Origin: Polynucleobacter hirudinilacicola
GTDB taxonomy: Bacteria; Pseudomonadota; Gammaproteobacteria; Burkholderiales; Burkholderiaceae
Length of the DNA: 64,000 nt
Assembly: GCF_002192535.1 (NCBI RefSeq)
Contig: NZ_NAIA01000003.1
Location: 124,001-188,000, forward strand
Direction of reading: 5' to 3'
The position numbers and the translations under genes were made by a program. The notes beneath the pieces are model-generated. The model did no database searches. It was not told the origin of the DNA and worked only from the letters and a program-made list of their open reading frames with translations. Shown piece by piece: positions 49,075 to 64,000 of the stretch (the stretch's first letter is position 1; each line of letters opens with the position of its first letter).

Positions 49075-49130
49075 TCGTAATTTGAAAAAAGACTTAAGAA
49101 TTTCTCCCCAGGCGGTCGTTTTCATTGTGT

Positions 49131-49170
49131 AGTCCACCAGAACTTGAACCAAGGACAAAAGATGATGAAG
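49131..49170 (-). repeat. tRNA 3'-half relic (copy 1)
   Basis: In reverse-complement orientation this matches a CAU tRNA from the acceptor through the T-arm (ACCAG.ACTTGAACC), variable region (GGAC.AAAG) and anticodon arm (AT.ATGA). It lies left of the amidohydrolase at 49304-50992. Confidence 0.6.
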
Positions 49171-49303
49171 CACTTAAGCAAACCAAACCCCTGGGGGTTC
49201 AGAGATTTGTACTGCATGTTTGTCAGTGCGCGAGATTTTGATGTGACTAATATCAAAACCACCCGAGAGTGGCTAAACCGCTTCGAAAAATGAACGTGCC
49301 TAA

Positions 49304-50992
49304 CTATGGGCGAACGTACAAATCCTTACCGTTCTTAATAGTCTTCAATATTTGAATATCTTTAATTTCCATTGGGTCTACTTTTAATGGATTACGATCA
49401 AGCACCACCATATCAGCCAGCTTTCCAGCAGCAATACTACCCTTGGACATCTCTTCTTTATACTGATATGCAGGCACCGTAGTAAATCCGCGAAGAGCAG
49501 TGTAAGGATCAATACGCTCCCCTATCCCCAAGACATCCCCGCCGTAAGTCATACGATTTACAGCAGTCCAAATCGTAAACAATGCGCTTGGTCCCGAAGA
49601 AGGAGTGTCATTATGAATGCCAAATTGGATGCCTTTTGTTAGAGCCAAATTTAGCGGCACCATATTGATAGCTCTTTCTTCCCCCAAGATTTTTTTATAT
49701 ACATCGCCATACATCCATATGTGGTTTGGCATAAATTGAGGGAGGATTTTATTTGTCTTATATTGATCTAATTGATCATCACGAATAAAAAATGAATGGG
49801 CAATTACTGTTCTGCGATCCTCGGTAACGTGTGTTTCTCGGATTGCCTTAGTGATTGCAGAAAGAGACATATCAATCCCGGCATCGCCATTGGAATAACC
49901 GTAATACTGTATATTTTTTTCGTAAGCCAACTTTGCATAACGATCAATTAAATCCTGAGACAGAATGGTCATCCCTCGCCAATCTTTTGGGAAACCAGCG
50001 GTATCGGTATAAGGCTTGGTGAAATATGCTAAACGTAATTGCGGTGCGCCATCGGTTGAAACCAAAATTCCAGCAACCTTAAAGCCAACATGTCCCTTGG
50101 TATATACCCCAAATGGATATTTTGGATTGGTAGCCAGCAATTGATCAACCACATCATAGGTTGGTAACGCAATCAGATCCAGGCTAATCATATTCAGATC
50201 CACTGCTTTGCGCATATTACGAATATCCTCAATCGTAGTTTCGTAACTTTGTGCAGTTGTAAATCCATTAGAAGCATAAATCTTTTCAGCCTTGCGATAA
50301 GTCTCAATCGTCAAAGCCTGGGGATACTTACCGAATACTTTAGTAGTTGCATTCAAGTTTGGCATTCCGATTAACTCACCGGTCAGTTTTCCAGTTTTTG
50401 GATTAACAGGAATCATGCCTTGTATGACTTTAGTCGCTCTAGTAATGTCCAGTTTTCGTAAGCCCGCTGAATTAACAATTCCAGTTAAAGTAGAAATGTT
50501 ATTAACAAAGACTGGCTGATTCGGAAAGGCTTCGTCTAATTCTGAAATCGTCAAAGGGCCATCAGAAAGAAATGCGTCTGCATACTCTGTGCCAATAATC
50601 CAACCATTAAATGGTCGGGCCTCGGCTTTCAAGCGGCCTATTAGCTCCTGAGTTGTACGAGGAGGCTTCTTTGAAAAATAACCAAGATTAACACCCAGAG
50701 TATTCTGAGCGATCAGAGTAAAGTGGCCCCAGGCATCTATAAACCCAGGTAATAGAGTTTGGCCATTTAAGTCATGAACTTCTGGATTAATACCTGCCTG
50801 ATTTAAGGAATCTCGCAGATTACCGACATAAGCTATCTTATTACCCTTAACTACAACCGCTTCAACGTACTGCGGTTGATCGCCCTCCATCGTCAGGATA
50901 TCGCCATTGAAATAGATACTTACATTATCAGCAAAGACTTGAGTTCCAATAAAAAGAAGGAAGACAGAAAAATAAATTTTAGGGATTTTCAT
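49304..50992 (-). CDS. Amidohydrolase-like protein with altered metal site
   Basis: A 562-residue relative of the YtcJ-like protein at 42692-44395, with a signal peptide (about 1-21) and the same C-terminal ADMVVLDRNPL strand. At the first metal motif the usual HxH is W-G-H (GFIDAWGHF), and the HANGD motif is YSNGD, so two normal ligand histidines are gone. Others remain (IAHSFFI, NHIWMYG, HNDTPSS). I chose the ATG at 50992; a TTG 15 bases upstream is in frame. It may be a mono-metal enzyme, a non-catalytic binder, or a distinct subfamily. tRNA relics lie on both sides. Confidence 0.85.
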   Translation of the reverse strand: MKIPKIYFSVFLLFIGTQVFADNVSIYFNGDILTMEGDQPQYVEAVVVKGNKIAYVGNLRDSLNQAGINPEVHDLNGQTLLPGFIDAWGHFTLIAQNTLGVNLGYFSKKPPRTTQELIGRLKAEARPFNGWIIGTEYADAFLSDGPLTISELDEAFPNQPVFVNNISTLTGIVNSAGLRKLDITRATKVIQGMIPVNPKTGKLTGELIGMPNLNATTKVFGKYPQALTIETYRKAEKIYASNGFTTAQSYETTIEDIRNMRKAVDLNMISLDLIALPTYDVVDQLLATNPKYPFGVYTKGHVGFKVAGILVSTDGAPQLRLAYFTKPYTDTAGFPKDWRGMTILSQDLIDRYAKLAYEKNIQYYGYSNGDAGIDMSLSAITKAIRETHVTEDRRTVIAHSFFIRDDQLDQYKTNKILPQFMPNHIWMYGDVYKKILGEERAINMVPLNLALTKGIQFGIHNDTPSSGPSALFTIWTAVNRMTYGGDVLGIGERIDPYTALRGFTTVPAYQYKEEMSKGSIAAGKLADMVVLDRNPLKVDPMEIKDIQILKTIKNGKDLYVRP

Positions 50993-51104
50993 ATATGAAT
51001 AGATCAACCAGTCGAAAGATCATAGCATTTAGTACTGCCTGGAGTGATCATTTTTCCATCTATTAAGGTAACTGAGGGAGGGGTTACTATGTCTTCAATT
51101 TCGT

Positions 51105-51150
51105 TGGTGAGCCGACTAGGACATGAGCCTGAGACTAAGGGATTATGAGA
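51105..51150 (-). repeat. tRNA 3'-half relic (copy 2)
   Basis: The reverse complement keeps the anticodon arm CTCATAATCC intact and matches the T-arm and CCA end with about eight changes in 45 positions compared with the copy consensus. It sits between the altered amidohydrolase and the AEC transporter. Confidence 0.68.
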
Positions 51151-51183
51151 GCGTCCCCACGAAATTTCGCCAGACCCACTAAC

Positions 51184-51216
51184 ATCAGTAAGCCCCACTT
51201 TACGAAGCTTACTGAT
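51184..51216. repeat. 10-bp perfect inverted repeat (hairpin)
   Basis: ATCAGTAAGC and GCTTACTGAT are exact reverse complements separated by 13 bases, 34 bases to the right of tRNA relic copy 2. There is no T-run on either side, so it is not a good terminator. It could be a recombination site arm or an operator for the AEC gene. Confidence 0.5.
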
Positions 51217-51310
51217 TCCTGGAAATCTGAAGTTGATAAATACCAATAGAAGTTTTTTGATATGGGCAAATAAAGTGCTAAATTGATACAAACTCAATAA
51301 GGGCTCTGTA

Positions 51311-52261
51311 ATGGACTTATTTAAACCTGTTTCCACGTTCATCGGTATTTTTATTATGATGATTATGGCAGCGCTATGGTTGAGGCGCCAAGATATCATT
51401 AATCAAAAGCATCTCCCGATCATTTCCAAGATGATTTTGGATCTCGTCTACCCAGCACTGATTTTTTCGGTAGTAGCGCAATGTGATTTGCGCATTAACT
51501 ATATTTATTCCGCTATGTCGATTAATGTCGGTTTACTGATTGTTGGTCTACTGCTGGGCTTATTAGGGAAATATGTTTTTCGGTTTGATAATGCTAGCCT
51601 AATGGCTTTTATTTTAGCCGGTACTTTTAGCGGAACTTCACTCATTGGTAGTGCTTTATTAAAAGTAGTTTATCAAGATCAGCCTGCAATAATTTCTATG
51701 GGGGTCGTTATTGCACAGCTTAGCCATGGCTTGCTAATTAATACAGTGGGAATATTTATTGGTATTCACTATTGCTCACATGATGAGAAAGCCCCGTTCA
51801 TAGGCCAAGTAAAAAATTTCTTAGTTAGCAAACCCATTCTCGCACTTGTTGGAGGTATAGCTTGGAATCTACTGCAACTTCCTACTACAGGATATTTAAC
51901 AGTTATTTTATTTAGCGGACTCACCATCATTGGCTCGGCGTTGCCTTTTTTATCAGCCATGGCAACTGGTCTGGCATTTGAAACCTTCAAGACGAAGGGT
52001 ATGTCCTGGATACTTTTATCAGTTGGTTTATCGCAGCTACTAGTGGAGCCCATTATTTCGCATGAATTAACAGGGTTTTTAGGATTACCCAAGGTAGATA
52101 GACAGGTTGGCTTACTACTTTCTGCGTTGCCCGCCTCTCCATTGGCAGTTATTATCTGCGCTCGTTATGGTGGCAACATCTCATTAGCCAGCGCGATAGT
52201 TTTATTTACTTGCTTCATTAGTATTATTTCACTCCCTATTACTGCATTATTTTCCGGATAG
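51311..52261 (+). CDS. AEC-family (auxin efflux carrier type) transporter
   Basis: The 316-residue protein has ten hydrophobic helices. It shows the AEC pattern of two five-helix halves, with LVYPALIFSVVAQ in the first half and LSALPASPLAVIICARYGG in the second, and a central GTFSGTSLIGSALL. Bacterial members move malate, malonate or similar carboxylates. It follows the tRNA relic at 51105 and has no obvious partner gene. Confidence 0.88.
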   Translation: MDLFKPVSTFIGIFIMMIMAALWLRRQDIINQKHLPIISKMILDLVYPALIFSVVAQCDLRINYIYSAMSINVGLLIVGLLLGLLGKYVFRFDNASLMAFILAGTFSGTSLIGSALLKVVYQDQPAIISMGVVIAQLSHGLLINTVGIFIGIHYCSHDEKAPFIGQVKNFLVSKPILALVGGIAWNLLQLPTTGYLTVILFSGLTIIGSALPFLSAMATGLAFETFKTKGMSWILLSVGLSQLLVEPIISHELTGFLGLPKVDRQVGLLLSALPASPLAVIICARYGGNISLASAIVLFTCFISIISLPITALFSG

Positions 52262-52394
52262 AAAATGAACTCCTCTCTGGCAAAGATCCATTATTGGCCG
52301 ACCACCAAGTAAGCAGTAGTGTGCAAGTAAATGTATGTGAGCTTACACTTATTGATCACTGCAATACATAGTCACACCATTCAAAAGACCACTT

Positions 52395-53090
52395 ATGAAA
52401 CTGCTTCCAAACCCTTTTCGCGCCCTAGTAATTGGGTCTTCAGGGACTATCGGCATGGCGTTTATGGATCTACTGAAAAAGAATCCCTCTTGCTCGGAGG
52501 TGATAGGAATCCATCGTCGCTCAGAATTTCCTATTGATTATCAAAATTTGGAGTCTATAGAGTCCTGTGCGAATGCTCTTATTCCATTATCACCGTTTCA
52601 ACTCATTATTAATACCGTTGGGGTTTTACACACGAGTAATTGGATGCCTGAAAAGAGACTGGATGATCTCAATGCCGAACAACTCATAGCACTCATGAAC
52701 ATTAATGCTATTGGTCCGGCACTCACCATACGTCACTTCTCTAAATTACTGGATCCCCAAAATAGCATCATGGTGACTCTCTCAGCTAAAGTTGGCAGTA
52801 TTGAAGATAACCGTCTTGGCGGGTGGTTTAGCTATCGCAGCTCTAAGGCAGCATTGAACATGCTGATAAAAACAGCATCTATTGAATGGGCCCGAACAAA
52901 ACCGAATACAGCATTAATTGCGATGCATCCCGGTACGGTGAACTCTAGACTCTCAAAACCATTTCGTGGTGAGCAGATTGGCAGACCTGCAGACCAGGCG
53001 GTAAACGATATGTTTCAGGTGATCCAAAACCTACAAAAAGAAGATTCAGGAAGTTTTGTATCGTATTCGGGTGAAAAGCTGCCCTGGTAA
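52395..53090 (+). CDS. Short-chain dehydrogenase/reductase (C-factor-like)
   Basis: The 231-residue SDR has the cofactor motif VIGSSGTIGMAFM at the start, NTVGVLHT as the NAG-like stretch, and the catalytic Y-x3-K in SYRSSKAALNM. It resembles the CsgA/C-factor group of small SDRs. The substrate is unknown. It is convergent with the exonuclease/GIY-YIG gene, 14 bases away. Confidence 0.9.
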   Translation: MKLLPNPFRALVIGSSGTIGMAFMDLLKKNPSCSEVIGIHRRSEFPIDYQNLESIESCANALIPLSPFQLIINTVGVLHTSNWMPEKRLDDLNAEQLIALMNINAIGPALTIRHFSKLLDPQNSIMVTLSAKVGSIEDNRLGGWFSYRSSKAALNMLIKTASIEWARTKPNTALIAMHPGTVNSRLSKPFRGEQIGRPADQAVNDMFQVIQNLQKEDSGSFVSYSGEKLPW

Positions 53091-53104
53091 CAGAATGATG
53101 ACGA

Positions 53105-54496
53105 TTAGATGTGGATAACTTGGTTTTTATATCGCCCTGACAACGCTTTTTTAACAATCTTATAAATATCTAAATCAAATTCAGCATCACCGGCGCTTTT
53201 AAGTTCGGATAATTCATCCTCATTGATAGCGGTCCCGAGGTAGCACCAATTATCTAAGACAATCATTTCGCCGCCATCATCAATCGCAATCGGGCCCTTA
53301 TAAGGCCAGACCTGCACTTTGTAGAGGCTCATTGCAGTTTGAAGTTGTAGGCTATGCATTTCGGTAGGCATCACTCCAATACAAGCGCCGCCGCATTGCT
53401 TTAACTGAAATCCAAAACAAGATTTACCTTCTGCACCCTTTTCCAATCCCAGCAATACTTCACATAAGCGATGCTTCTTAGCAACCGCTTTTAGATAAGA
53501 GTGAGCCTCTCTTTTGCTGTAAAACAATCCATACAAGTTCTCTTGAAGGCCTGGTAGCAAATCCTTCTGATTGATTAGTACTGGTACGAGTATTCCTGAA
53601 GAATTTTTTTCCAGACTCCAGGCGCATAGATCTTTGGATCGACGAAGCTTAATATTCATACTGGGCATGCGTTCTTTAATCAGCTGAGATTCCAAAATTA
53701 AAGCTCCCAACTCGCCACTAGTCTCTATCCAGTCAATATCTCTGACCTGTAGAGACAGCTTCATTTCTTTGCGCTGTGTTAAGGAACCTTGAAAGTGGCC
53801 CATCACCCGACTTCGCAAAGAAATACTTTTCCCAATATACAAAGGGCTCTTATTTTCACCATAAAAAATATAGCAACCCGGTGCATCTGGGATTGAATCA
53901 ATTAATTCCTGATCAATATTGGGTGGCAAGCTTGCATTACCCGTCAATTGATTAATAGCTTCAAGCAATCGCTCTCTCCCGACTGCCTTTTCACATACTT
54001 GCCAAAATTGAAGTAGTAAATCCGCATCACCAAGCGCCCTATGCCTCGCGCTCACAACTAAGTTATGTGCCTGTATGATGGTATCAAGGTTATGACGCGG
54101 CTGATTGGGAAATAGCAATCTTGAAAGCTTTACTGTACATAAGACCTTGGGCTTGAAATCGATCCCAACCCTCTTAAGGGATGCTTTGATAAAGCCATAA
54201 TCAAATCTTGCGTTATGAGCTACAAAGATTTTTCCCTCAAGCTCTTCTTTAATTTCTTTTGCAAGATCCTCAAAACTTGGCTGATCAGCAACCATTTTTT
54301 GAGATATGCCAGTTAATTTTTGGATATTTTGGGAAATATAGATCTGGGGATTAACTAATTTTTCCCAAGTACTAACCTGCTCGTCTGCGAGCGTTTTAAT
54401 ACCAATCTCAGTAATGCGATCCCGCTCGAAATGAGATCCTGTTGTTTCGATATCAACAAAAGCAAGCTTAGGGTAGTGATTTATTTGCTGCTTCAT
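53105..54496 (-). CDS. DnaQ-like 3'-5' exonuclease fused to a GIY-YIG (Cho/UvrC-like) domain
   Basis: The 463-residue two-domain protein has an N-terminal DEDDh exonuclease: FVDIETTG (D-x-E, residues 14-21), HNARFDYGFI near 94, and the late HRALGDADLLL. A GIY-YIG nuclease domain starts near residue 205 with APGCYIFYGENKSPLYIGKS and continues with SLRSRVMGHF and ELGALILESQLIKERMP. The C-terminal part is like UvrC/Cho. Such fusions are thought to process damaged DNA. An Rrf2-family regulator gene lies directly upstream on the same strand. Confidence 0.93.
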   Translation of the reverse strand: MKQQINHYPKLAFVDIETTGSHFERDRITEIGIKTLADEQVSTWEKLVNPQIYISQNIQKLTGISQKMVADQPSFEDLAKEIKEELEGKIFVAHNARFDYGFIKASLKRVGIDFKPKVLCTVKLSRLLFPNQPRHNLDTIIQAHNLVVSARHRALGDADLLLQFWQVCEKAVGRERLLEAINQLTGNASLPPNIDQELIDSIPDAPGCYIFYGENKSPLYIGKSISLRSRVMGHFQGSLTQRKEMKLSLQVRDIDWIETSGELGALILESQLIKERMPSMNIKLRRSKDLCAWSLEKNSSGILVPVLINQKDLLPGLQENLYGLFYSKREAHSYLKAVAKKHRLCEVLLGLEKGAEGKSCFGFQLKQCGGACIGVMPTEMHSLQLQTAMSLYKVQVWPYKGPIAIDDGGEMIVLDNWCYLGTAINEDELSELKSAGDAEFDLDIYKIVKKALSGRYKNQVIHI

Positions 54497-54561
54497 AAAA
54501 ATTCAGGCTTGGCGGGTAATTGGCTTGGCTCTATAGCCTCAACCGCCCTAAGGACTTGATT

Positions 54562-55131
54562 TCAACTTGTACTACGATCTAAGTAATTAGCAAAGTCAAA
54601 TACTGAATTGGGTCCGCGCGGAACGTCCACAACCTTCTTAAATTCAGCCTTCACCACATACTGAATCTCACCTCGTTGCTTCTTTTCTTTTTTTGGATCC
54701 AAGGGAACATATGGCTTACGCTCAGGCGCTTTTTTAGCTTCACTAAAACTTGGCACGTAATCTTTAATAGTAGATGCAAGGGATACATTTTCCATGCAAC
54801 CTAGCATATAAGCCTCTAGAGATTGATAAAGATCCTTAGCAATATCTGATAGCTCAACCTTACGCTTTTTGATTAAATTCATTGCGAGCACGATGTCTTT
54901 AATAGTAATGATGCGGGGATCTTTTGAGAGTTGGTAGCCGCCTGTTCGCCCCTTGACCGCAATGACGATCCCGGACTCTCTCAATGGTCGCAAGAGGAGC
55001 TCAATACGACTAACGGATAAATGCTGCCTCTTAGCTATCTCAGGAACCGGCACAAACTGACCATTGCTTGAATGACTAGCAATATCAACCAAGGCATTAA
55101 GTGCTGTTTTAACTGCTTTAGTGACTTCCAT
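54562..55131 (-). CDS. Rrf2-family regulator without Fe-S cysteines
   Basis: The 189-residue protein has an N-terminal winged helix typical of Rrf2 (EIAKRQHLSVSRIELLLRPLRESGIV then KGRTGGYQLSKDP, across about residues 30-80). IscR and NsrR carry three cysteines in the dimerisation loop; here only one (Cys near 112) is seen. The C-terminal part (about 130-189) is basic, with KKEKKQRGE, and unusual for the family. A cluster-independent DNA binder is inferred. It probably shares a transcript with the exonuclease gene. Confidence 0.85.
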   Translation of the reverse strand: MEVTKAVKTALNALVDIASHSSNGQFVPVPEIAKRQHLSVSRIELLLRPLRESGIVIAVKGRTGGYQLSKDPRIITIKDIVLAMNLIKKRKVELSDIAKDLYQSLEAYMLGCMENVSLASTIKDYVPSFSEAKKAPERKPYVPLDPKKEKKQRGEIQYVVKAEFKKVVDVPRGPNSVFDFANYLDRSTS

Positions 55132-55166
55132 GACTCATTTGGCGAAAAAATTAGATTGGAGCTAGT

Positions 55167-55736
55167 ATGAAACCGAATCTAATATCTCGCTGCAGCGCAC
55201 TACTTAACCCCTTTTATCACATGGTTGAAATAAGCAAACCCTACTATCCCCTTGCGCATCGATTGCTTAGGTTCATCGCCTACATTTTGGCGGGGGGCAT
55301 TCTCGCGCAAGCCCTGTGTTGCAGCATGTTCTATTTTTTAATTTATGACTCTCAAGCAGCGGGCATGCTGGCCCACCTAATAATTCAACATCTCTCTTAC
55401 TTTTTCTTAGGGGGCGTATTTATCATCATGAGTGTTTCCAATATTCTCATTAAAAGAGGTTTATCACAGTTAAGAGTGATTCGTATACCATCGCTCACTA
55501 TATTTTTAGCAATCGCTACTACGAGCTTCCTACTCATACCCCGTATGGATTATTTGCGAGAGACTGCCCTGATCGATGGCATGCCCGTCATGCTCTCTCC
55601 TTTTGCCAATTACTTTGCAGTACTTAATGCCATTACATTGCTTCTACTACTAGCCCAAATGATATTTAGCGGCCTCATGGCATGGCGCTTAAGCGATCAC
55701 CAATTAACCCAAATGGCGCCTGACCGAAGCAATTAA
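55167..55736 (+). CDS. Four-helix membrane protein, unknown
   Basis: The 189-residue protein has about four hydrophobic segments (roughly 36-58, 67-87, 104-122 and 148-172) and a polar N-terminus. The late segment with DGMPVMLSPFANYFAVLNAITLLL slightly resembles DUF4149-type proteins, but I do not claim the family. It is divergent from the Rrf2 gene and its 3' end overlaps the convergent DUF2244 gene by 33 bases. Confidence 0.6.
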   Translation: MKPNLISRCSALLNPFYHMVEISKPYYPLAHRLLRFIAYILAGGILAQALCCSMFYFLIYDSQAAGMLAHLIIQHLSYFFLGGVFIIMSVSNILIKRGLSQLRVIRIPSLTIFLAIATTSFLLIPRMDYLRETALIDGMPVMLSPFANYFAVLNAITLLLLLAQMIFSGLMAWRLSDHQLTQMAPDRSN

Positions 55737-56132
55737 AGGGATCTGTTGCTCCGGCCTGACAAACTGCCCAAGCTCAACTCGCAAATCCGATTGAGTAATA
55801 AAAAAGGTTTTTGATCCCTCTAGGGGTGGCTCAATTTTTGCCCATTGGGCATTGAATTCATAAACCTTTTCTCTGTAGCCAATGAATTTTTTGACTAAAA
55901 GACGTTTGCCTTCAATTTCAATCGTTTCACAATCTAGGGCATGCCTACAGTAGATTAAAAATCCAATCGTGACCGCAGTTAATTCCAGAGTTGTAAAAAC
56001 GGGAATCATCCATACTCCCGCCAAGAAGAAACCAATTCCCACGATTAAGGATAGACAGACCAAAACAATATAAAACTGAAGCAGTTGCTTAGGTGTCAGG
56101 GCGCAGTTTCTACGCATTTGCCAAGTCTTCAT
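55704..56132 (-). CDS. DUF2244-family membrane protein
   Basis: The 142-residue protein has two membrane helices (about 19-41 and 45-65) after the DUF2244 start RRNCALTPKQLLQFY, then a cytoplasmic domain with RHALDCETIEIEGKRLLVKKF. Family members often sit beside cytochrome oxidase genes, but not here. Function is unknown. Confidence 0.88.
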   Translation of the reverse strand: MKTWQMRRNCALTPKQLLQFYIVLVCLSLIVGIGFFLAGVWMIPVFTTLELTAVTIGFLIYCRHALDCETIEIEGKRLLVKKFIGYREKVYEFNAQWAKIEPPLEGSKTFFITQSDLRVELGQFVRPEQQIPLIASVRRHLG

Positions 56133-56154
56133 ACCAAAGCCAGATTACCTAAAA

Positions 56155-56304
56155 TTAATGGGTATTTTTACGCTCTTGGGATTTAGCCAACTGGTCAGCA
56201 CTTCTTTGCTGAAAATCGACCATGGTGTGATAACCCATTTGATAGCAGGGGCAATGCTTACCCAGAATCCAGCGAGCAAGCTTAACGCGAAATTTTTGAA
56301 TCAT
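56155..56304 (-). CDS. 49-aa basic protein with HCPC motif
   Basis: A 49-codon frame begins behind a GGAG site eight bases upstream. It encodes a basic amphipathic start (IQKFRVKLARWILGK), then HCPCYQ with two cysteines, and a polar Gln/Lys-rich end. The H-C-x-C arrangement could bind a metal, but no family is recognised. It is upstream of the DUF2244 gene on the same strand. Confidence 0.6.
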   Translation of the reverse strand: MIQKFRVKLARWILGKHCPCYQMGYHTMVDFQQRSADQLAKSQERKNTH

Positions 56305-56436
56305 TTACATCTCCTAAGATTGAGCTTCAAATGTAAACGCAAATGGAGTTTAGTGCTGGCCGCAGGGATAAAAAGGGGGGCATTTAGCCCTAATTAGGTG
56401 CCAGCAAAGATGAGACAAATCCATTACATTGAATGG

Positions 56437-57081
56437 ATGACCAATTCCACACCCTCTACTCGTAAATTACCTTTATTTCCACTGGGTACCGTACTTTTTC
56501 CAGATGGCGTCATTGCGCTCAAGATTTTTGAAGCGCGCTATCTCGATATGATTAAGCAATGCCTTCGTGAAAAGACCGAATTTGGCGTCGTGAGCATCAT
56601 TAAAAATACTGACACTAGTGACGAAGATATATCTCTATCTTTTTCTAAGATCGGCACACTAGCTCAAATTGAGGATTTTGATCCTATTCAGCCAGCGCTT
56701 TATATGACTAAATCATTTGGCACGCAGCGATTTAAGTTATTGAGCAGCAGCCAGGAAGCTAACGGCCTTTGGATAGGCGAAGTAGAGCTTTTGGAAAATG
56801 ATCCGCTCATGCCAATTCCGCAAGAACATCAAGGTGTTGCTAAATTGCTGGATGAAATAATATCTGTCATTCAAAGCGAAGATCTCATGGGAGAGGCGCC
56901 CTTTAAGAAGCCTTTTAAAGTAGATGATTGCGGATGGGTTTCTAATCGCCTGGCTGAACTATTGCCAATCTCCCTTGCCCAGAAGAATCATTTGCTAGCT
57001 CAAACCAATCCTCGCATAAGACTCGATCTGATTACTGAAATTATTGAAGATGATGATTTAAGAAATCTCATGATGCATTAA
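56437..57081 (+). CDS. LON substrate-binding (N-terminal) domain protein
   Basis: A protein of about 214 residues made only of the Lon N-terminal domain (LON_substr_bdg), with RKLPLFPLGTVLFPDGVIAL then FEARYLDMIKQCLRE near the start. I preferred the ATG at 56437 by homology; in-frame GTG (56398) and ATG (56410) starts upstream are possible. Such ATPase-less proteins are common and of unknown function. It is co-directional with the MpaB-family gene, four bases downstream. Confidence 0.9.
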   Translation: MTNSTPSTRKLPLFPLGTVLFPDGVIALKIFEARYLDMIKQCLREKTEFGVVSIIKNTDTSDEDISLSFSKIGTLAQIEDFDPIQPALYMTKSFGTQRFKLLSSSQEANGLWIGEVELLENDPLMPIPQEHQGVAKLLDEIISVIQSEDLMGEAPFKKPFKVDDCGWVSNRLAELLPISLAQKNHLLAQTNPRIRLDLITEIIEDDDLRNLMMH

Positions 57082-57085
57082 TACT

Positions 57086-57946
57086 ATGCTTGATGAGTTG
57101 ATCCGTAAAACAATACGAGAGATGGTTGGCGGAAGCGGTCCACCTATTGCATTCTTAACCCCGCAGGGAGACCGAGGGCTATTTGGCCCCGAGTCAGTTT
57201 CCTGGAAAATTCATGCAGACTTTATTTCCATGATGATTGGCGGTATTAGCTCATTGATTTTGCAAGCCCTGCATCCACAGGCTTTGGCTGGAGTATGGGA
57301 CCACTCCTCCTTCAGAGAAGATCTCAAAGGTCGCCTTGGTAGGACTGCGTTTTTCATTGCAGCAACGACCTACGGCCCTACTGATATGGCAAATAATATC
57401 ATCACAAAGGTTAATCACATTCACACCAAAATTACTGGCCTCGATGAATTTGGCAAGCCCTATTCAGCTACAGACCCTCATTTGCTTGCCTGGGTACATC
57501 TCACAGAGACACGCAGTTTCATCAACTCTTTTGAAGGCTATCGCATGGAAACAATCAGCCCAAAAGAGAAAGATCAATATTTTCTAGAGATGAGTTCTCT
57601 AGGAGCAAGAATGGGCGCTATGAATCTTCCGACTACTTATGCCAGCACTGAGAAGGCCATCCAAGGCTATATACCGGAGCTCTATTTTGGAGAGCGTGCC
57701 AAGAGCATTATTGATTTACTGGATAACTTCCCCAGCAATCTAACAGCCAAGCCCTTTATCAAGCTCATTAGTCGCGCCGGCTTTCTGAATCTTCCAGACT
57801 GGGTATATCCCATAATTGGAAAATCTACCCCGAGTTACTTTGAACGTCTAGCAGTCAAAAAAAGTATTGATTTAATTGCAATTCCCGTTCGTGAAGCCCT
57901 TAAGAATGGGGTGGCCGCTCATTCCTTAAGAAGAGTTTATGGATAA
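57086..57946 (+). CDS. Oxygenase MpaB-family (DUF2236) protein
   Basis: The 286-residue protein has the conserved WKIHADFISMMIGGISSLIL and LHPQALAGVWDHSSF segments (near residue 70) and RLGRTAFFIAATTYG. The family includes latex-clearing and mycophenolate-pathway oxygenases that bind heme b; its histidine in LHPQ is conserved here. The substrate is unknown. It follows the LON-domain gene and precedes a DUF4149 gene on one likely transcript. Confidence 0.88.
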   Translation: MLDELIRKTIREMVGGSGPPIAFLTPQGDRGLFGPESVSWKIHADFISMMIGGISSLILQALHPQALAGVWDHSSFREDLKGRLGRTAFFIAATTYGPTDMANNIITKVNHIHTKITGLDEFGKPYSATDPHLLAWVHLTETRSFINSFEGYRMETISPKEKDQYFLEMSSLGARMGAMNLPTTYASTEKAIQGYIPELYFGERAKSIIDLLDNFPSNLTAKPFIKLISRAGFLNLPDWVYPIIGKSTPSYFERLAVKKSIDLIAIPVREALKNGVAAHSLRRVYG

Positions 57947-57961
57947 CTATAGAAAGTAATC

Positions 57962-58339
57962 ATGATTACAAATTATTTTTTATCTGGCATGGTTGGCATC
58001 ATGCTCTTTTTTACAGTAGTTGTTGCCCCTACTGTGTTCAAAGTGCTACCTGTCGAATGGTCCAGCAAATATGTCAGAAACTTTTTCCCAAAGTACTACG
58101 CAACCTTGGGCTTAATCACCCTGATCTGCGTATTTACAGAACCAGATATAGCAAACAAGGTTTTACTCGGAATCTGTGCAGCCCTTTTTGCCTTCACCCT
58201 TTTCTACTTAACTGGAAAAATTAATCACGCCAAAGATAGTGGCCAGGGTCGTCAATTTCACTGGCTTCATGGTACCAGCGTAGTGATTAATCTGTTTCAG
58301 CTTATTTCTTTTCTATACCTACTGGTCATCTCTTCATGA
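57962..58339 (+). CDS. DUF4149-family (TMEM205-like) membrane protein
   Basis: The 125-residue protein has four hydrophobic helices. The start GIMLFFTVVVAPTVFKVLP and then RNFFPKYYATLGL are the DUF4149 hallmarks. Function is unknown. Its stop overlaps the start of the next gene (ATGA). Confidence 0.86.
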   Translation: MITNYFLSGMVGIMLFFTVVVAPTVFKVLPVEWSSKYVRNFFPKYYATLGLITLICVFTEPDIANKVLLGICAALFAFTLFYLTGKINHAKDSGQGRQFHWLHGTSVVINLFQLISFLYLLVISS

Positions 58340-58698
58340 AAATTCAATATGCCATCACCCTTGTCGCACTGATACTGTTGTCTATGGGCGCTACTAACGC
58401 GCAGACTAAACCGAATCAGAAACTGAATTCAAGCTATGTTGAAAGCTGCATTCAAAGTCAGCTTCAAATACATCAGAATTTAAAGGAGATTTCTCAAGGT
58501 GATTTTCGAGCGCATTGTGAATGTACGGCAAAACAACTATCTAGCACTCTCAGCTCAACACAGCTAGATGAGCTTCTCAAAACCAATCAGTCGCCTAAGT
58601 GGCTTAAATCTGCAGAAGATGCGGCAAGCAAATCCTGCCTTAAGCCCGTGACTAAGACTCAGGCTTGGTTTTATCAGATTCTTGTTCTAAGTTCTTGA
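58336..58698 (+). CDS. Secreted hypothetical protein, 120 aa
   Basis: It has a signal peptide ending in TNAQ (about residue 22) and a helical body with four cysteines (VESCIQSQ, HCECTAKQL, KSCLKPV). These likely form disulfides in the periplasm. Translational coupling to the DUF4149 gene suggests a joint role. The gene overlaps the convergent 59-aa Cys-rich gene by 47 bases. No family is recognised. Confidence 0.68.
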   Translation: MKIQYAITLVALILLSMGATNAQTKPNQKLNSSYVESCIQSQLQIHQNLKEISQGDFRAHCECTAKQLSSTLSSTQLDELLKTNQSPKWLKSAEDAASKSCLKPVTKTQAWFYQILVLSS

Positions 58699-58831
58699 GG
58701 GGACTTGGCTTCAAATTTAAAGAAGGTGCCGCCATTTTTTCACCATCCCACACTTGCCCACACCAACACTCACCAGCATCATTAATAATACAAACGCCAG
58801 ACCCACAGCAGCGCTTATCTGGAGATTTCAT
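58652..58831 (-). CDS. 59-aa cysteine-rich protein (CCGxGxC...CWCG), probable metal binder
   Basis: A 59-codon frame encodes five cysteines in the first 24 residues (RCCGSGVC, then ECWCGQVWDGE), followed by a polar tail. The tight CCG-x-G-x-C plus C-W-C-G pattern is that of a short widespread betaproteobacterial protein type of unknown role; zinc or Fe-S binding is likely. An AGGG site precedes the ATG. It overlaps the end of the convergent secreted-protein gene. Confidence 0.72.
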   Translation of the reverse strand: MKSPDKRCCGSGVCIINDAGECWCGQVWDGEKMAAPSLNLKPSPLKNLEQESDKTKPES

Positions 58832-58914
58832 AATTCAGCCCTTATCAATTCAAGATTGGAAATTAAGGCTATTCTAGAGTTTTTATTGATTTAGTGTTGA
58901 CCTCTATTGACGTG

Positions 58915-59556
58915 ATGAAGCAAACCGCCTTATTTGAAATTGCTCCGGTACAACATGGACAAAACCTGTTGCCCAAGGATGGGTCTGCTTACTACTATCC
59001 AGAATGGATGAGCGCAGTAGATAGCACTGAGTTGATGGAGCGTCTAGAAAAATCATTGCAATGGGAAGCAGATCACTTATTCATGTTCGGAAAATATGTG
59101 ACAACCCGGCGTAAGGTGGCTTGGGTAGCAGATCCAAGCTGTACTTACACCTACTCTGGGGTAAAAAAAGAAGCTCAACCATGGATTCCGGAATTACTAG
59201 CCCTTAAAACCCAAATTGAAGAACTTGCCCAATCCGAATTTAACTCCTGCTTACTGAATCTCTACCATGATGGAAAAGATGGGATGGGTTGGCATAGCGA
59301 TGATGAAAAAGAGTTAGATGCAAATTCCCCAATTGCCTCAATCAGTCTTGGTGCTACCCGTAAATTTTCATTAAGGCACAAGACTGATAAAACAACTGTC
59401 TCCCTACCTCTAGAAAATGGTAGCGCTCTTGTCATGCATTCACCGACTCAGCAATTTTGGCAGCATGCTCTACTTAAAACTACAACTATTCACATACCTC
59501 GTATCAATCTCACTTTTAGAAAAATTAATCCTCATCATGAACGCCAAGAAAACTAA
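58915..59556 (+). CDS. AlkB-family 2-oxoglutarate-dependent dioxygenase
   Basis: A protein of about 213 residues with the AlkB core: SCLLNLYHDGKDGMGWHSDDE (the H-x-D iron motif is in its last five residues), SISLGATRKFSLRHK (Arg for 2-oxoglutarate) and LVMHSPTQQFWQHAL (distal histidine). It repairs alkylated DNA or RNA bases. The ATG at 58915 is my choice; an in-frame GTG lies 21 bases upstream. Its 3' end overlaps the folB-like gene by 20 bases. Confidence 0.93.
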   Translation: MKQTALFEIAPVQHGQNLLPKDGSAYYYPEWMSAVDSTELMERLEKSLQWEADHLFMFGKYVTTRRKVAWVADPSCTYTYSGVKKEAQPWIPELLALKTQIEELAQSEFNSCLLNLYHDGKDGMGWHSDDEKELDANSPIASISLGATRKFSLRHKTDKTTVSLPLENGSALVMHSPTQQFWQHALLKTTTIHIPRINLTFRKINPHHERQEN

Positions 59557-59947
59557 CGCATGTATTGAATTAAAAGATCTGAAGCTACAGACACAAATTG
59601 GAACTTATGCGCCTGGCGCGATCATTCCTAAGCAACACCTATTGGATTTAACGCTATGGATTGACGAAAAACTCATCTTAATCACAAAAGATCTGATGGA
59701 AAATGTGTTTGACTATGATCCTCTAGTGATTGAGATGAATAGACTTGCAGGCGATGGCCACTATGAAACGCAAGAAAGACTCATGACCCGAATAGTTCAG
59801 GCTTGCTCACAGTATCCCGAAATTCAATCCCTTGAAATCAACCTCAGAAAATCACCAGTTAGCGCAGGCTCTGGCTCACTTGGCATCAGACTCAAAGTGG
59901 ATCAAACTACCTTGGATGATTTTAGGACTTCTAAGTTCTCATCGTAA
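59537..59947 (+). CDS. folB: Dihydroneopterin aldolase (FolB-like)
   Basis: The 136-residue protein has the family pattern ELKDLKLQTQIGTYAPGAI at the start, FDYDPLVIEMNRLAGDGHYETQERL in the middle with the catalytic Glu region, and a final beta strand LGIRLKVD. It cleaves 7,8-dihydroneopterin in folate synthesis. The ATG at 59537 lies inside the AlkB gene end; the frame is open further upstream but only within AlkB. Coupling suggests one transcript. Confidence 0.82.
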   Translation: MNAKKTNACIELKDLKLQTQIGTYAPGAIIPKQHLLDLTLWIDEKLILITKDLMENVFDYDPLVIEMNRLAGDGHYETQERLMTRIVQACSQYPEIQSLEINLRKSPVSAGSGSLGIRLKVDQTTLDDFRTSKFSS

Positions 59948-60070
59948 GTAAGCCCTAATGAGACTCAAAATATCATCATAGAGCTGCCTAAGCTTTTTAA
60001 AGAATTTCATTTAGTAATTGATTGAGCGCTAATTCCAGTCTACAACTAGACATCTGAATGTATGTCAGTA

Positions 60071-60469
60071 TTACCGGCTATCCCTTAAGGCAATGAGCAA
60101 GGGATGATCCACTGGAAACTGAGCATCTTCAATAGCAGCGCTAACTTCTGGTAAGGTTTCAGCTATTTCTTCACTCCCTTGAAAAACCATTGTCCACTTA
60201 CTAAAGCTTCGCTCGCTGATCTGCTTTGACTCTATTAAGCGGACATTTTTGTGTCGGTCGTCCTTTTGAATTTTTTGCCACAAGGCATTGATATCCTTTT
60301 CAAGTCCCTCAATAACTTGTCCAAATTGATTATTCTCATAAATGAGTGCGCCAGTAATCCCTAAAGCTTGGTTATTGGAATACGAGTGATATAAGAGCCT
60401 CATCAGACCCAAGAACGACATATTTTGGGCTGGTTCACTCACATAAGTTAATTCAATTAGCTTAGACAT
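60071..60469 (-). CDS. Stand-alone BLUF blue-light photoreceptor
   Basis: The 132-residue protein is a single BLUF domain. The key residues are Tyr9 (ELTYVSEP), the flavin-binding Asn at 32/33 (SNNQALGITG), Gln51 (FGQVIEG) and Trp92 (FSKWTMVF). It binds FAD and senses blue light; with no output domain it would act through a partner protein. I chose the ATG at 60469; a GTG lies one codon upstream. The neighbour is an MFS gene past a tRNA relic. Confidence 0.92.
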   Translation of the reverse strand: MSKLIELTYVSEPAQNMSFLGLMRLLYHSYSNNQALGITGALIYENNQFGQVIEGLEKDINALWQKIQKDDRHKNVRLIESKQISERSFSKWTMVFQGSEEIAETLPEVSAAIEDAQFPVDHPLLIALRDSR

Positions 60470-60543
60470 CACCCAATACTAGAGATACCCTATGTCAATT
60501 GCTCTAGGCGTTTACCCGAGCGCTTCATGCAGTAGCCCCAAAT

Positions 60544-60585
60544 GACAAAATCCCCACCATTGTTGATGAGGGTTTGCTTTTCTGG
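60544..60585. repeat. 42-nt element shared with 62871-62912
   Basis: By hand alignment 36 of 42 positions match the copy at 62871-62912, with core CCACCATTG.TGATGAG.G. Both copies abut the CCA end of a tRNA relic, so this is the downstream flank of the relic. Confidence 0.75.
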
Positions 60586-60610
60586 TGGTTACGGCAGGAC
60601 TTAAACCTGC
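60583..60610 (-). repeat. tRNA 3'-end relic (copy 3)
   Basis: The reverse complement reads a perfect 5-bp T-arm (GCAGG/CCTGC with a seven-base TTTAAGT loop), then a seven-base acceptor strand and ACCA. The rest of the tRNA is missing. Its acceptor differs from the other copies, so it may come from a different tRNA. It separates the BLUF gene from the MFS gene. Confidence 0.6.
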
Positions 60611-60663
60611 AAACTTCTATCGCACTTAACTGCGATGAAATCCTCTTTGATTTCTATCGCAAT

Positions 60664-61944
60664 TCAATTGTCATTGAGCAGGTAGGGTGCATTTCTTGGC
60701 AACCGGAAGCTAACCAAAAAAGCTAGCCCTAGCATTACAGTGACATACCAGTAAAACAATGACTCATATCCCTGTGCTTTAAAGCTTAGAGCTACAAATT
60801 CAGCCGTACCCCCAAAGATCGAATTAGCAATTGCATAAGACAAGCCGACACCTAACGCTCTTACCTCCGGAGGAAACATCTCTGCCTTTACTATTGCGGC
60901 GATTGATGTATAGAAACTAATAATGCCTAATGCGAAGCTAATGACCAAGAAAGCTATCCAGCTCTCAGAAACTCCTTGAAGAATAGCCATCATTGGAATA
61001 GTAAAAAGCACTCCTAAACCACCAAAGAGCAGCATATTGTTTCTGCGGCCTATACGATCTGATAGAGCCCCAAATACCGGTTGCATCAACATAAAAACCA
61101 ATAAGCATCCCGTCATTACAGCACTAGCAGTCTGTATAGACATATGCGCTGAGTTCACTAGATACTTTTGCATGTAGGTTGTGAATGTGTAAAAACTTAA
61201 AGAGCCTCCTGCCGTATAGCCCAAGACAGTAAAAAATGCTTTTTTATGATCTCGAAATAAAGCCTTAATACTGCCGGCATCCTTGTTTACCTCAGATAAA
61301 TTAGGTGCTGTCTCAGAAAGAGTTTTTCGTAAAAAAAGTACAATCACCGCAGCAAATGCACCGATAACAAATGGAATTCTCCAACCCCACTCCTTGAGCT
61401 GACTTTCATCTAAAAATTGCTGCAAAATTAAAATGACCAAAACTGCCATTAGTTGACCGCCAATTAACGTGACATATTGAAAAGATGAATAAAACCCTCT
61501 TTGCCCCTTCATACCAATCTCACTCATATAGGTGGCAGTAGTTCCATACTCCCCACCTACGGAAAGGCCCTGGAACAGCCTTGCCACTACTAGTAAGACT
61601 GGAGCCCAAATGCCAATAACATCATAGCCAGGCAGACATGCGATCATCAAAGAGCCTGCACACATCATCATCACAGAAATTAACAAGGATTTTTTTCTAC
61701 CATGACGATCGGCAATACGCCCAAAAATCCATCCTCCGATAGGTCGCATCAAAAATCCTACAGCAAAAACACCGGCCGTATTAAGCAATTGAACAGTAGG
61801 ATTGGCTGCAGGGAAAAATATATGGGCAAAGTAAATAGCACAAAAAGCATAGACATAAAAATCAAACCACTCAACAAGATTACCGGAGGACGCTGCAAAT
61901 ATCGCAAATATTCTTTTTCGCTTTTCTGCTGTTGTGTATGCCAT
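60664..61944 (-). CDS. MFS transporter of the metabolite:H+ symporter (MHS/KgtP-like) group
   Basis: The 426-residue protein has twelve helices and the MHS signature [16 protein letters not shown] near residue 20, [14 protein letters not shown] as the MFS loop motif, and [18 protein letters not shown]. Members import 2-oxoglutarate, citrate, shikimate or betaine with protons. It lies alone between tRNA relics at 60583 and 62100. Its left gap carries two small hairpins without T-runs. Confidence 0.9.
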
Positions 61945-62061
61945 ATAATTTTTTAATGTATTTTTAAATTAGTCTTAAAGTTAATAATAAATGTTAGTCA
62001 AGTTAAAAGATATTTTTAATGAATAACCCAAGAAGCCAAAAAAACCTCTAAATTACGATGA

Positions 62062-62094
62062 AAAACTACTAATGCTATTCACGTTAGTAGTTTT
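62062..62094 (-). terminator. Hairpin with T-run after the CCA end of tRNA relic copy 4
   Basis: An 11-bp perfect stem (AAAACTACTAA/TTAGTAGTTTT, 11-base loop) is followed by T on the minus strand. It begins six bases past the relic's CCA end, as a tRNA terminator would, and supports the relic's origin from a real tRNA gene. Confidence 0.7.
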
Positions 62095-62099
62095 GTTGC

Positions 62100-62140
62100 T
62101 GGTGGGCCCTCTAGGACTTGAGGCTGGGACCAAAGGATAG
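62100..62140 (-). repeat. tRNA 3'-half relic (copy 4)
   Basis: The reverse complement gives CTTTGGTCCCAGCC, TCAAGTCC and GGGCCCACCA in tRNA order: anticodon-side stem, T-arm and acceptor. It is among the best-preserved copies, with few changes in the first 38 positions. It lies between the MFS gene and the cupin gene. Confidence 0.72.
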
Positions 62141-62335
62141 TGAAAGCTGACCCTCTCATTGGTTTAGCAAATAAAAAATCCCTTCTTCTGGGGCGGCACT
62201 AAAATCAGGCTAGTTCAGCCTCTGCAAAGTTGGTTTGGTGATAACCCTAGATTTTGGTGAAATAACCTCAAAATCATTTGACCCATTGCTAATTGCTTGG
62301 CATTCTGTATTTCACAAGTCTATTGGAGTTATGCA

Positions 62336-62809
62336 ATGAAATTCAAAAAATTAATAGCTGTTGTCGGTTTTATTTTAGCTTTGGGATTAACCGGAACTCA
62401 ATCACTGGCGCTGACGCATATCGATGGCGCCGTCCCATATGAAGACATTGAAGCTACAGAAATTACAATATCACAATCGCCAAAAACCATCTTAGGACAA
62501 GACTTTAAATATCCAGCAGGGCAACCTCTCATCAAATCTTTTGTGATTGATATACCAGTTGGTAAGCAAACTTCTCTACACAAACACGCGGTTCCATTAT
62601 TTATTTATGTAGTCTCTGGAGAGTTAGAAGTTGATTATGGCAGCAAGGGTAAGAAAACATTTAAATCTGGCGCAGCCTATGTAGAAGCGATTGAATGGTG
62701 TCATTTTGGTAAGGCTTCTGGAAAATTACCTGTAAAGATTATTAGCACTTATCTAGGTCAAGAAAAACCTGATCAATTGAAGCCCGATTCTTGCTCTAAG
62801 CCTAATTAA
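62336..62809 (+). CDS. Secreted cupin-domain protein
   Basis: A protein of about 157 residues with a signal peptide (about 1-23) and one cupin barrel. Motif 1 is GKQTSLHKHAVPLFIYVVSGELEV (two histidines), and motif 2 is near AAYVEAIEWCHFG. An ATG at 62336 with GGAG eight bases upstream is the start; upstream in-frame codons are unlikely. A metal-binding periplasmic cupin is inferred, with unknown ligand. It is flanked by tRNA relics at 62100 and 62910. Confidence 0.85.
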   Translation: MKFKKLIAVVGFILALGLTGTQSLALTHIDGAVPYEDIEATEITISQSPKTILGQDFKYPAGQPLIKSFVIDIPVGKQTSLHKHAVPLFIYVVSGELEVDYGSKGKKTFKSGAAYVEAIEWCHFGKASGKLPVKIISTYLGQEKPDQLKPDSCSKPN

Positions 62810-62870
62810 TTTTTTAAGTCGCTTATTCTGAGGTGCCTGCTCCAGCCGTCACCTCAAGTAGCGCTCAAAA

Positions 62871-62912
62871 GACAAAACCGCCACCATTGCTGATGAGAGT
62901 TTACTTTTTTGG
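62871..62912. repeat. 42-nt element shared with 60544-60585
   Basis: This is the second copy of the flank described at 60544-60585, ending in the TGG (CCA) of relic copy 5. Five of the six differences from the other copy are transitions, pointing to an old duplication rather than chance. Confidence 0.75.
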
Positions 62913-62949
62913 CGGGCCCACCAGGACTTGAAACTGGGGCCAAAGGATA
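62910..62949 (-). repeat. tRNA 3'-half relic (copy 5)
   Basis: The reverse complement reads ATCCTTTGGCCCCAG, TTCAAGTCCTGG and TGGGCCCGCCA, nearly a full 3' half of a CAU tRNA with about four changes in 40 positions. The match stops at the anticodon arm. It lies between the cupin and the Bug-family gene. Confidence 0.75.
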
Positions 62950-63092: not shown

Positions 63093-64000
63093 TTAATGAA
63101 ATATTTTCTCCGAGCTTCGGTTATATCTTACAACTTCATTAGAAAACTGCTCTGCTGAGCTCCATTTGATCTCGATACCAGTGGATGCGAATGCCTTAAT
63201 AAATTTTGATTGATTCAGAACATCCTTAATCGCCAATGAAAGCGTATCGCAAACTCCCAATGGAATTTTTTGTGGTGCAAATACCCCGTAAAAAGGATTA
63301 TTTTCAAAACCTTGAATTCCAAGCTCAGAAAAGGTTGGAACATTTGGAAGCAAAGCTAATCTTTTGCTTCCCATGACTCCGATAATACGGATTTTTCTAC
63401 TGCGATGATGCTCAATGCATTCGAAAATTGATCCTATCCCTGCAGGAATGTGATTTGCTAGTATGTCGCTTAGCATCGGAGCACTTCCCTGATATGGCAC
63501 AGTCACCAAATCGAGATTTTCTTTACGATTTATACGTTTCACTAGATATTCCGGAATTGAATTTATTGCTGGGACTCCAATAGAGCGTTGGGCGCCTGTC
63601 TGGCTCAATAGCCATTGTCGATACTGCAAGTAATTAATGGGCGGGATATTTGCAGAAATAAAGAGGCAATTTACAAAATTTCCAACTCCAGCTACCGCCT
63701 GAAAATCAACCATTGGGTTGTAGCCTGGATTCTTGGTCAGTTGTGGAACTATCGAAATAGTATGGTCATGCGATAGTAGTAACACGCTCCCATCTGGCTT
63801 GGAATCCATTAAAGTCTGAGCAGCAATTTGCCCGCCTGCACCAGCTCGGTTTAATACAGTAACCGGAATCCTTAATTGTTCTCGTAGGCCATCAGCAAGA
63901 TATCGCGCCAACAAATCAGTACCGCCGCCAGGTGGAAAGCCAACCAAGATAGTGATCTTAGGTGGAAGTTGATCAGCATATAACGGGTTTGCACGAAGGG
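63093..64000 (-). CDS. Bug-family tricarboxylate transporter binding protein, partial
   Basis: The frame runs off the right edge of the window, so the N-terminus is missing; the visible start RANPLYADQLPPKITILVG looks like the end of a signal peptide and the first strand of a mature Bug protein. The body shows GFPPGGGTDLLARYLADGL, VLNRAGAGGQIAAQTLM and a late PTFSELGIQGF. It binds an unknown carboxylate in the periplasm. It is divergent from the cupin gene past tRNA relic copy 5. Confidence 0.9.
   Translation of the reverse strand, partial: LRANPLYADQLPPKITILVGFPPGGGTDLLARYLADGLREQLRIPVTVLNRAGAGGQIAAQTLMDSKPDGSVLLLSHDHTISIVPQLTKNPGYNPMVDFQAVAGVGNFVNCLFISANIPPINYLQYRQWLLSQTGAQRSIGVPAINSIPEYLVKRINRKENLDLVTVPYQGSAPMLSDILANHIPAGIGSIFECIEHHRSRKIRIIGVMGSKRLALLPNVPTFSELGIQGFENNPFYGVFAPQKIPLGVCDTLSLAIKDVLNQSKFIKAFASTGIEIKWSSAEQFSNEVVRYNRSSEKIFH

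Follow-up and report, generated by a model that had tools for sequence, protein, structure and literature searches.

What leaves a row of half tRNA genes, all facing the same way, between blocks of accessory genes in a small bacterial chromosome? The window that raises this question is a stretch of 64,000 nucleotides (nt) from a 2.0-Mb Polynucleobacter genome (G000:C3:124001-188000; this genome is labelled G000 and its relatives G001 onward), in which degenerate copies of the 3' half of one tRNA gene recur between accessory genes. We refer to these copies as relics R1 to R6, numbered from left to right; coordinates beyond 64000 continue the window numbering, and tRNA positions are counted linearly on the 77-nt intact copy, with the anticodon CAT at nt 35-37. 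The initial annotation of the window had proposed that the copies are fragments made by integrases in the course of repeated insertion, and this remains the best reading, being supported by the intact tRNA, by integrases in relatives, by an empty site at R3, and by an element arm at R6. Specifically, we conclude, with a probability of roughly 0.87, that the relics are right-hand attachment sites (attR scars) of successive integrative elements that used the anticodon loop of the tRNA-Ile2(CAU) gene beside rpoD as their chromosomal attachment site (attB).

Relics of a tRNA gene next to rpoD

ARAGORN calls no tRNA in the window, so the relics have to be recognized by alignment. When aligned to the intact tRNA, all five 3'-half segments singled out initially proved real, and all lie, as claimed, in one orientation, on the minus strand and in the sense of the tRNA: R1 (49134-49168; tRNA nt 34-69; 83% identity; 35.4 bits), R2 (51105-51149; nt 33-77; 82%; 44.0 bits), R3 (60583-60609, or 60539-60609 with the terminator; nt 51-77; 78%; 74.0 bits with the terminator), R4 (62100-62143; nt 34-77; 86%; 51.1 bits), and R5 (62910-62948, or 62866-62948 with the terminator; nt 39-77; 92%; 94.0 bits with the terminator). 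The query consisted of the tRNA 3' half and its terminator, and the resulting range of 35-94 bits stands against a maximum of 25.4 bits in 100 dinucleotide shuffles of the window. The tRNA part of R3 alone is a weak match (E 0.24); 71 nt are common to R3 and R5, with 79% identity. The count of five falls one short of the total, because R6 (65367-65411, minus strand), in which 45 of 45 nt are identical to the tRNA 3' half, falls 1.4 kb past the end of the window.

The intact CAU tRNA gene is located at 78126-78202 (G000:C3:202126-202202; minus strand), directly after rpoD and 14 kb to the right of the window, and thus the prediction that it would be found to the right of position 64000 was borne out. 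Within the genome, a near-exact 3'-half pattern matches only this gene and R6. The relics had been described as being of the CAU type where readable; CAT is indeed visible in R1 and R2, and also in R6, but R4 reads CAC, whereas R3 and R5 lack the anticodon position. ARAGORN labels the intact gene as Met(CAT). It is, however, most likely tRNA-Ile2(CAU): the tRNAs that were read (30 of 38 matches, with their neighbours) include Ile(GAT), an initiator, and one further CAT tRNA, whereas Ile(TAT) is absent from them. The acceptor-stem rule presumably argues for the same identity.

Nucleotides 1-32 of the tRNA are absent from all six relics, the earliest of which starts at nt 33. All six lie on the strand of the tRNA; in the fetched genomes with the main tRNA, 68 of 68 3' halves, intron 3' exons included, are in direct orientation as well. 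Across the array, the similarity of the relics to the tRNA drops with the distance from it (rho -0.83, n=6, p 0.04).

An empty site at R3 and an element arm at R6

The segment 60071-60609, which encompasses a BLUF gene, a terminator, and R3, shows homology that runs into the intact tRNA in three relatives, G049 (86% identity), G084 (81%), and G151 (91%), and in each case ends at 60609, within the tRNA. This constitutes an empty site, at R3 only. Because the homology to three relatives ends inside the tRNA at this position, the most plausible reading of the ~17.5-kb stretch from R3 to the tRNA (MFS, cupin, Bug/GNAT, and a 12.7-kb block) is that it was inserted, as compared with these genomes. 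The comparison of strains at block boundaries, which had been suggested as a check, therefore yields a break at the R3 boundary, but no single block was shown to be present or absent at both of its boundaries.

We compared the element sides of the relics with 60 arms collected from relatives, using 300 shuffled queries (50 per relic) as the control. The 160 nt beyond the crossover at R6 are 79-89% identical, over at least 148 nt, to 13 arms in 11 genomes; matches at E<=0.01 were obtained to a total of 38 of the 60 collected arms, and the shuffled queries gave 5 matches. Judged by sequence similarity, the element side of R6 is a conserved attachment arm.

Junctions at the tRNA gene in relatives

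In the genus, a near-exact 3'-half pattern, intact tRNAs included, was detected in 66 of 101 genomes, and in many of the extra 3'-half copies the letters before CTCATAA differ from the GGA of the tRNA, the commonest being CT, preceded by G where arms were read. A pattern for nt 1-34 (up to 3 mismatches) was matched in 158 of 186 genomes, and junctions were classed by the letters following this pattern in the 150 matches listed, which come from 89 genomes. Among the matches listed, 55 are intact tRNAs, 52 are intron-split, 41 are left-junction or other 5' halves, and 2 were set aside; 35 of these complete or intron-split tRNAs are preceded by a left junction at a distance of 197-253 nt (start to start). 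For example, the tRNA 5' half (nt 1-39) comes after rpoD in G088 and G014, and 158 or 186 nt of other DNA separate it from a complete tRNA with its own terminator. At the left junction, the 5' half meets the element after CTCATAA, and at the right junction, an arm meets the 3' half before CTCATAA. Because the left join falls after this motif and the right join before it, the 7-bp core common to both is that of the anticodon loop. In the fetched DNA, a right junction is also present for 11 of the 23 left junctions. Repeated CTTACACACC-like motifs flank the core on both sides and, by eye, are candidate integrase arm sites. In G099, a second complete tRNA copy with a degenerate left junction (L081:10207-10500) lies near serS (by eye), away from rpoD, and might be an off-site insertion or a moved copy.

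These junctions bear on the possibility that the relics are pseudogenes of whole tRNA genes that arose by tandem duplication and decay. A single tRNA is the source of all the relics, and degenerate longer copies exist in relatives (nt 7-72 in G146 and nt 2-47 in G074), as such an origin would lead one to expect. However, nt 1-32 are missing from each of the six relics, 5' halves in relatives occur separately and are followed by element DNA, and the R6 arm also speaks against pseudogenes, an origin that we consider extremely improbable.

Under the integrative scenario that we favour, a tyrosine integrase would recombine the 7-bp CTCATAA, which is embedded in GGA-CTCATAA-TCC in the tRNA and in GCT-CTCATAA-GAA in the commonest element. 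The left product would be the element joined to the tRNA 5' half (nt 1-39), and the right product would be the 3' half with the terminator, joined to an element arm. As this cut disrupts an essential tRNA, a complete replacement gene would come with the element, ~200 nt in from the left end and in most cases split by a group I intron that follows the anticodon directly. The next element to arrive would then enter at the left junction of the one already present, and the stack would grow with its newest member next to rpoD. In 6 of 6 stacked inner copies examined (G122, two in G077, G080, G137, and G112), an arm-CTCATAA-arm (attP-type) junction is found upstream of the tRNA instead of a 5' half. 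If the tRNA of an element is not a target, a newcomer would have to use the left junction of the resident, and the inner element would show exactly such a junction. In G000, the newest block (12.7 kb, from R6 to the tRNA) retains its right arm and lacks both an integrase and a left end, the latter presumably lost, and the older blocks have decayed.

Integrases at the site

Two related types of tyrosine integrase are encoded at this site in relatives: int-A (404-406 amino acids), which matches the Pfam family Phage_integrase, and int-B (448 amino acids), which matches PHROG integrases and no Pfam family above the cut-off. The int-A gene follows directly after the left junction in G040, G106, G027, and G151; these elements have a 5' half at both ends and therefore re-form the tRNA at their far end. 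At E<=1e-60, int-B was found in 19 of 398 genomes of the family, all of them Polynucleobacter (1 of 25 genera). The initial annotation saw no integrase in view, and at this threshold the G000 genome as a whole has none of the int-B clade. A scan of a named genome collection with an integrase from the genus returned 27 loci, 22 from Polynucleobacter, 3 from uncultured beta proteobacterium, 1 from Burkholderiaceae, and 1 from Legionellaceae. A contig of a metagenome-assembled genome labelled Legionellaceae (L235, CANJHO010000121.1) carries an int-B fragment 97% identical to that of Polynucleobacter, likely as a result of misbinning.

Among the 31 integrases that are at least 55% identical to int-B (three fragments under 175 amino acids left out), 26 were counted by hand within 10 kb of a tRNA copy, an intron, or, in G126, a 5' half; in G185, the integrase has its tRNA copy on the opposite side. 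No copy is listed on the contig for three of the remaining five (G166, G009, and G097, the last with a right junction at a distance of 1.4 kb), and for the other two the copy is 15 kb (G072) or 26 kb (G144) away. Genes that co-occur with the integrases encode a small tyrosine recombinase of ~190-240 amino acids, a DUF6641 protein, and a DUF6876 protein. A phmmer search of the elements with int-B gave matches in G073 (a span of 3.1 kb), G040 (the outer span, 15.0 kb), G059 (28.8 kb), G031 (34.1 kb), and G014 (38.2 kb), as well as in the spans of G080 (60 kb) and G077 (66 kb), which hold stacks. The same search gave no match in G135 (2.4 kb) and G038 (3.7 kb), which lack int-A, int-B, and the small recombinase, or in the inner span of G040 (9.4 kb) and G136 (14.9 kb), which lack an integrase; such integrase-less cassettes would move in trans. 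By their location, the integrases of the relatives are the candidates for the enzymes that do the cutting and that made the array in G000.

An integron was considered and rejected: with the IntI model TIGR02249, int-A and the small recombinase scored far below the cut-off, and int-B was not listed. A PHROGs scan of ten proteins returned integrases, unknowns, or no match, and one scan of the IMG/VR viral contigs yielded no confirmed int-B relative and one 23-residue DUF6641-like match. Elsewhere in G000, a distant integrase (G000:C3:854906-856051; 35% identity to int-A) is encoded next to two tRNA genes, identified as Arg and Pro (856218-856404), and probably marks another tRNA-targeted element in this genome.

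Group I introns in the element tRNAs

Rfam group I introns (RF00028) were detected in 69 of the 186 genus genomes at E<=0.001 and in 56 of 186 over the gathering score, in a scan with filters that lose weak matches; no such match was found in G000. In the 13 sources scanned, 8 of the introns in split tRNAs reach the gathering score. In 19 copies picked by a filter, the intron lies directly after the anticodon, and its excision restores the exact 77-nt tRNA in 18 and leaves one mismatch in one. In a second intron type, the insertion point is shifted upstream by three letters, to just before the anticodon; this type occurs in G096 and, judging by the first letters, also in G101, G043, G123, G001, and G131.

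Among the matches listed, with the classes assigned by first letters, a left junction is present for 31 of 52 intron copies versus 4 of 55 intron-free ones (Fisher p 5.8e-9, a value that overstates independence because the rows come from related genomes). Of the 35 listed copies behind a left junction, 31 have an intron next to the anticodon; the other four are intron-free, which shows that an intron is not strictly required. Because of the position of the intron and its association with left junctions, we infer that splitting of the anticodon target may shield the tRNA of the element from the integrase, with the function of the tRNA presumably preserved by self-splicing. The arm-CTCATAA-arm junctions fit such shielding without requiring it. 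Nevertheless, we lean slightly towards the introns being ordinary group I hitch-hikers on element tRNAs, unrelated to target protection: a group I intron is described in Azoarcus pre-tRNA-Ile (in the part of PMC3984707 considered here), the four intron-free copies imply that the intron is dispensable, and the stacking junctions do not demand a shield. What such hitch-hiking accounts for less readily is that there are two intron types at two positions flanking the anticodon, both inside the target core, and that the association with left junctions is strong.

Only tentatively, then, do we outline a genus-wide cassette system, in which elements would take over an essential tRNA, a self-splicing intron placed exactly in the integrase target would hide the new tRNA from the integrase of the element and from related integrases while splicing keeps it functional, newcomers would be steered to the dead left junction and form ordered stacks, and integrase-less cassettes (2.4-3.7 kb) would ride on the integrases of larger neighbours. 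As a whole, this system appears possible but rather doubtful.

Alternative readings of the array

Several observations weigh against the interpretation of the relics as attR scars. The G000 array has no integrase, 5'-half relic, detectable left arm, or hallmark gene, the left arm and hallmark genes having been sought in 40-80 kb of this region. In the arm comparison, the element sides of R2-R5 match none of the 60 arms, and the R1 arm has one marginal match (E 0.001), which is not to the arms suggested by its through-alignment. The latter alignment (49078-49249) joins R1 and ~80 nt past the crossover to 3'-half relic regions of G014 (73%), G077, G135, and G150, but is weak evidence because the R1 arm alone misses the arms of these four genomes at E<=0.01. 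Furthermore, R1 and R2 sit beyond the 9.4-kb block of shared genes between R2 and R3, a placement that plain stacking at the tRNA does not explain. This block may itself be an old insertion, since it is also found between a relic and the tRNA in G049; alternatively, rearrangement between repeats could account for the placement. Across the fetched genomes, the farther 3' half is the more degenerate one in only 20 of 57 pairs, although this is a poor and uninformative test, with intron 3' exons counted and ties scored as no. Finally, among the matches listed, no left junction appears for 21 of the 52 intron copies; some of these are stacked with the other junction type, some are at contig ends, and some are degenerate or have no junction. 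As for R2, its junction reads GCT-CTCATAA, as do many right junctions of relatives, and its longer arm matches none; orthology of R2 to the outer relic of G049 was rejected because the flanks differ.

Some of these features would also be compatible with the blocks having been swapped by homologous recombination, for instance, in natural transformation, between the tRNA/terminator repeats, with an integrase making the first repeats only. The array lacks an integrase, the repeats are long enough (R5 with its terminator is 91% identical over 78 nt), blocks and single genes are placed differently among species, and a clear element arm is seen at only one of the six relics, R6. Swapping nevertheless seems unlikely to us, considering that the relics in G000 start at tRNA nt 33 or later, that the R6 arm is common to other genomes, and that the left and stacked junctions in relatives are precise and adjoined by integrases. 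Successive integration at the anticodon loop remains our preferred interpretation.

Gene content of the blocks

The arrangement originally described, in which the relics separate an amidohydrolase, a 9-kb mixed block, an MFS permease, a cupin, and a Bug protein, stands, with the genes placed by Pfam and those of the mixed block mostly by eye. The block between R1 and R2 (49169-51104) contains the amidohydrolase gene (49304-51007, minus strand; PF07969), relatives of which are found at most 7 kb from the tRNA in G065, G105, and G141 and far off in other genomes, such as G014 and G031. The 9.4-kb block between R2 and R3 (51150-60582) encodes a permease (PF03547) and, by eye, contains SDR, exonuclease, AlkB-like, FolB-like, and BLUF genes. 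Genes of this block are located near the tRNA in G024, G033, G038, G049, and G151, and the SDR-to-BLUF order is kept in G049, with a relic on one side and the intact tRNA on the other. Against an old insertion of the block, its outer gene in G151 adjoins a cupin gene, as is also the case in G024 and G036, with no relic in the 16 kb fetched beyond it.

Between R3 and R4 lies the MFS permease gene (60664-61944, minus strand; PF00083/PF07690); the segment 60664-62052 is 85% identical to G026:C1:1727673-1729060, which is ~34 kb from the tRNA copy of that genome, beyond kdp-like genes, and beside which no relic was seen. The cupin gene (62297-62809, plus strand; PF07883) is enclosed by R4 and R5, and the block from R5 to R6 (62949-65366) encodes a Bug/TctC receptor (PF03401) and, outside the window, a GNAT protein (PF00583). 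The 12.7-kb block from R6 to the tRNA encodes, by Pfam, a glycosyltransferase, a cation P-type ATPase, a mandelate-racemase-type enzyme, and a GntR regulator, and, by eye, also a second mandelate-racemase-type enzyme and a Bug receptor.

In relatives, the cargo at this site includes, by eye, genes for nitrate assimilation, a proteorhodopsin-carotenoid block, kdp potassium uptake, restriction-modification, and an AbiE-like pair. The nitrate assimilation genes (by eye), a cargo known from tycheposons, are in the 28.8-kb element of G059 (L143-L144), and in G084 the proteorhodopsin and carotenoid block (by eye) lies between two tRNA-half relics (L194:2598-11404). The orphan Rfam RNA Polynucleobacter-1 (RF01718) is found at L078:9101-9241, inside the tRNA-Ile2 element of G014; it was rejected as a shared component, being present in one element only and in none of the other sources scanned. 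A SAM-I/IV riboswitch match at L142:11917-12014 lies inside the G031 element, ~470 nt from the integrase gene.

Comparison with known systems

Genomic islands at tRNA genes and their displaced tRNA fragments are well known (PMC4383910, PMC9897764, in the parts considered here). In the open-licence literature, we found no title or abstract on integrative elements that bring along an intron-split copy to replace the tRNA they target, nothing that combines a group I intron with an integrase, the anticodon loop, and a genomic island, and nothing that combines Polynucleobacter with a group I intron. The elements described here would provide a mechanism for the gain and loss of ecological genes in freshwater Polynucleobacter. 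They would also make the old idea of tRNA introns as protection from integrating elements testable in bacteria, because intron-split and intron-free copies of one tRNA, along with integrases that apparently attack it, coexist in the genomes of named strains.

That tRNA introns might block integration is a proposal of Randau and Soell, cited in PMC3293823, a 2012 paper that, in the part considered, notes no direct evidence linking disrupted tRNA genes to integration. The Caldiarchaeum tRNA-Thr locus described there resembles the present case in having an element beside a tRNA, a left-over 5' fragment, and the gain of an intron; however, that intron is archaeal and the locus is a single one, whereas here group I introns accompany recurrent insertion across a bacterial genus. 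The intron of Azoarcus pre-tRNA-Ile (PMC3984707, in part) is likewise a group I intron in a bacterial tRNA-Ile, but those in Polynucleobacter are on mobile elements, with several copies per genome. The islands of the Islander type, as portrayed in the available part of PMC4383910, share the tyrosine integrase, the tRNA target, the fragment marking the end, and the restoration of tRNA function by the island. In contrast to them, the elements analysed here leave a dead 5' half at the left end, regain function from a complete tRNA ~200 nt away, often split by an intron, and are stacked.

The nearest named kind in streamlined aquatic bacteria is the tycheposons of Prochlorococcus and Methylophilaceae (PMC10872708, in part), with which these elements share streamlined aquatic hosts, a tyrosine recombinase, a tRNA border, and metabolic cargo; those of Methylophilaceae start at tRNA-Met(cat). 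The defining combination of a tyrosine recombinase and a tRNA border is found in the relatives only, and the likeness drawn here concerns these descriptive features. Whereas the tycheposon accounts in the part of PMC10872708 considered here mention no intron-split tRNA, the Polynucleobacter elements often carry one.

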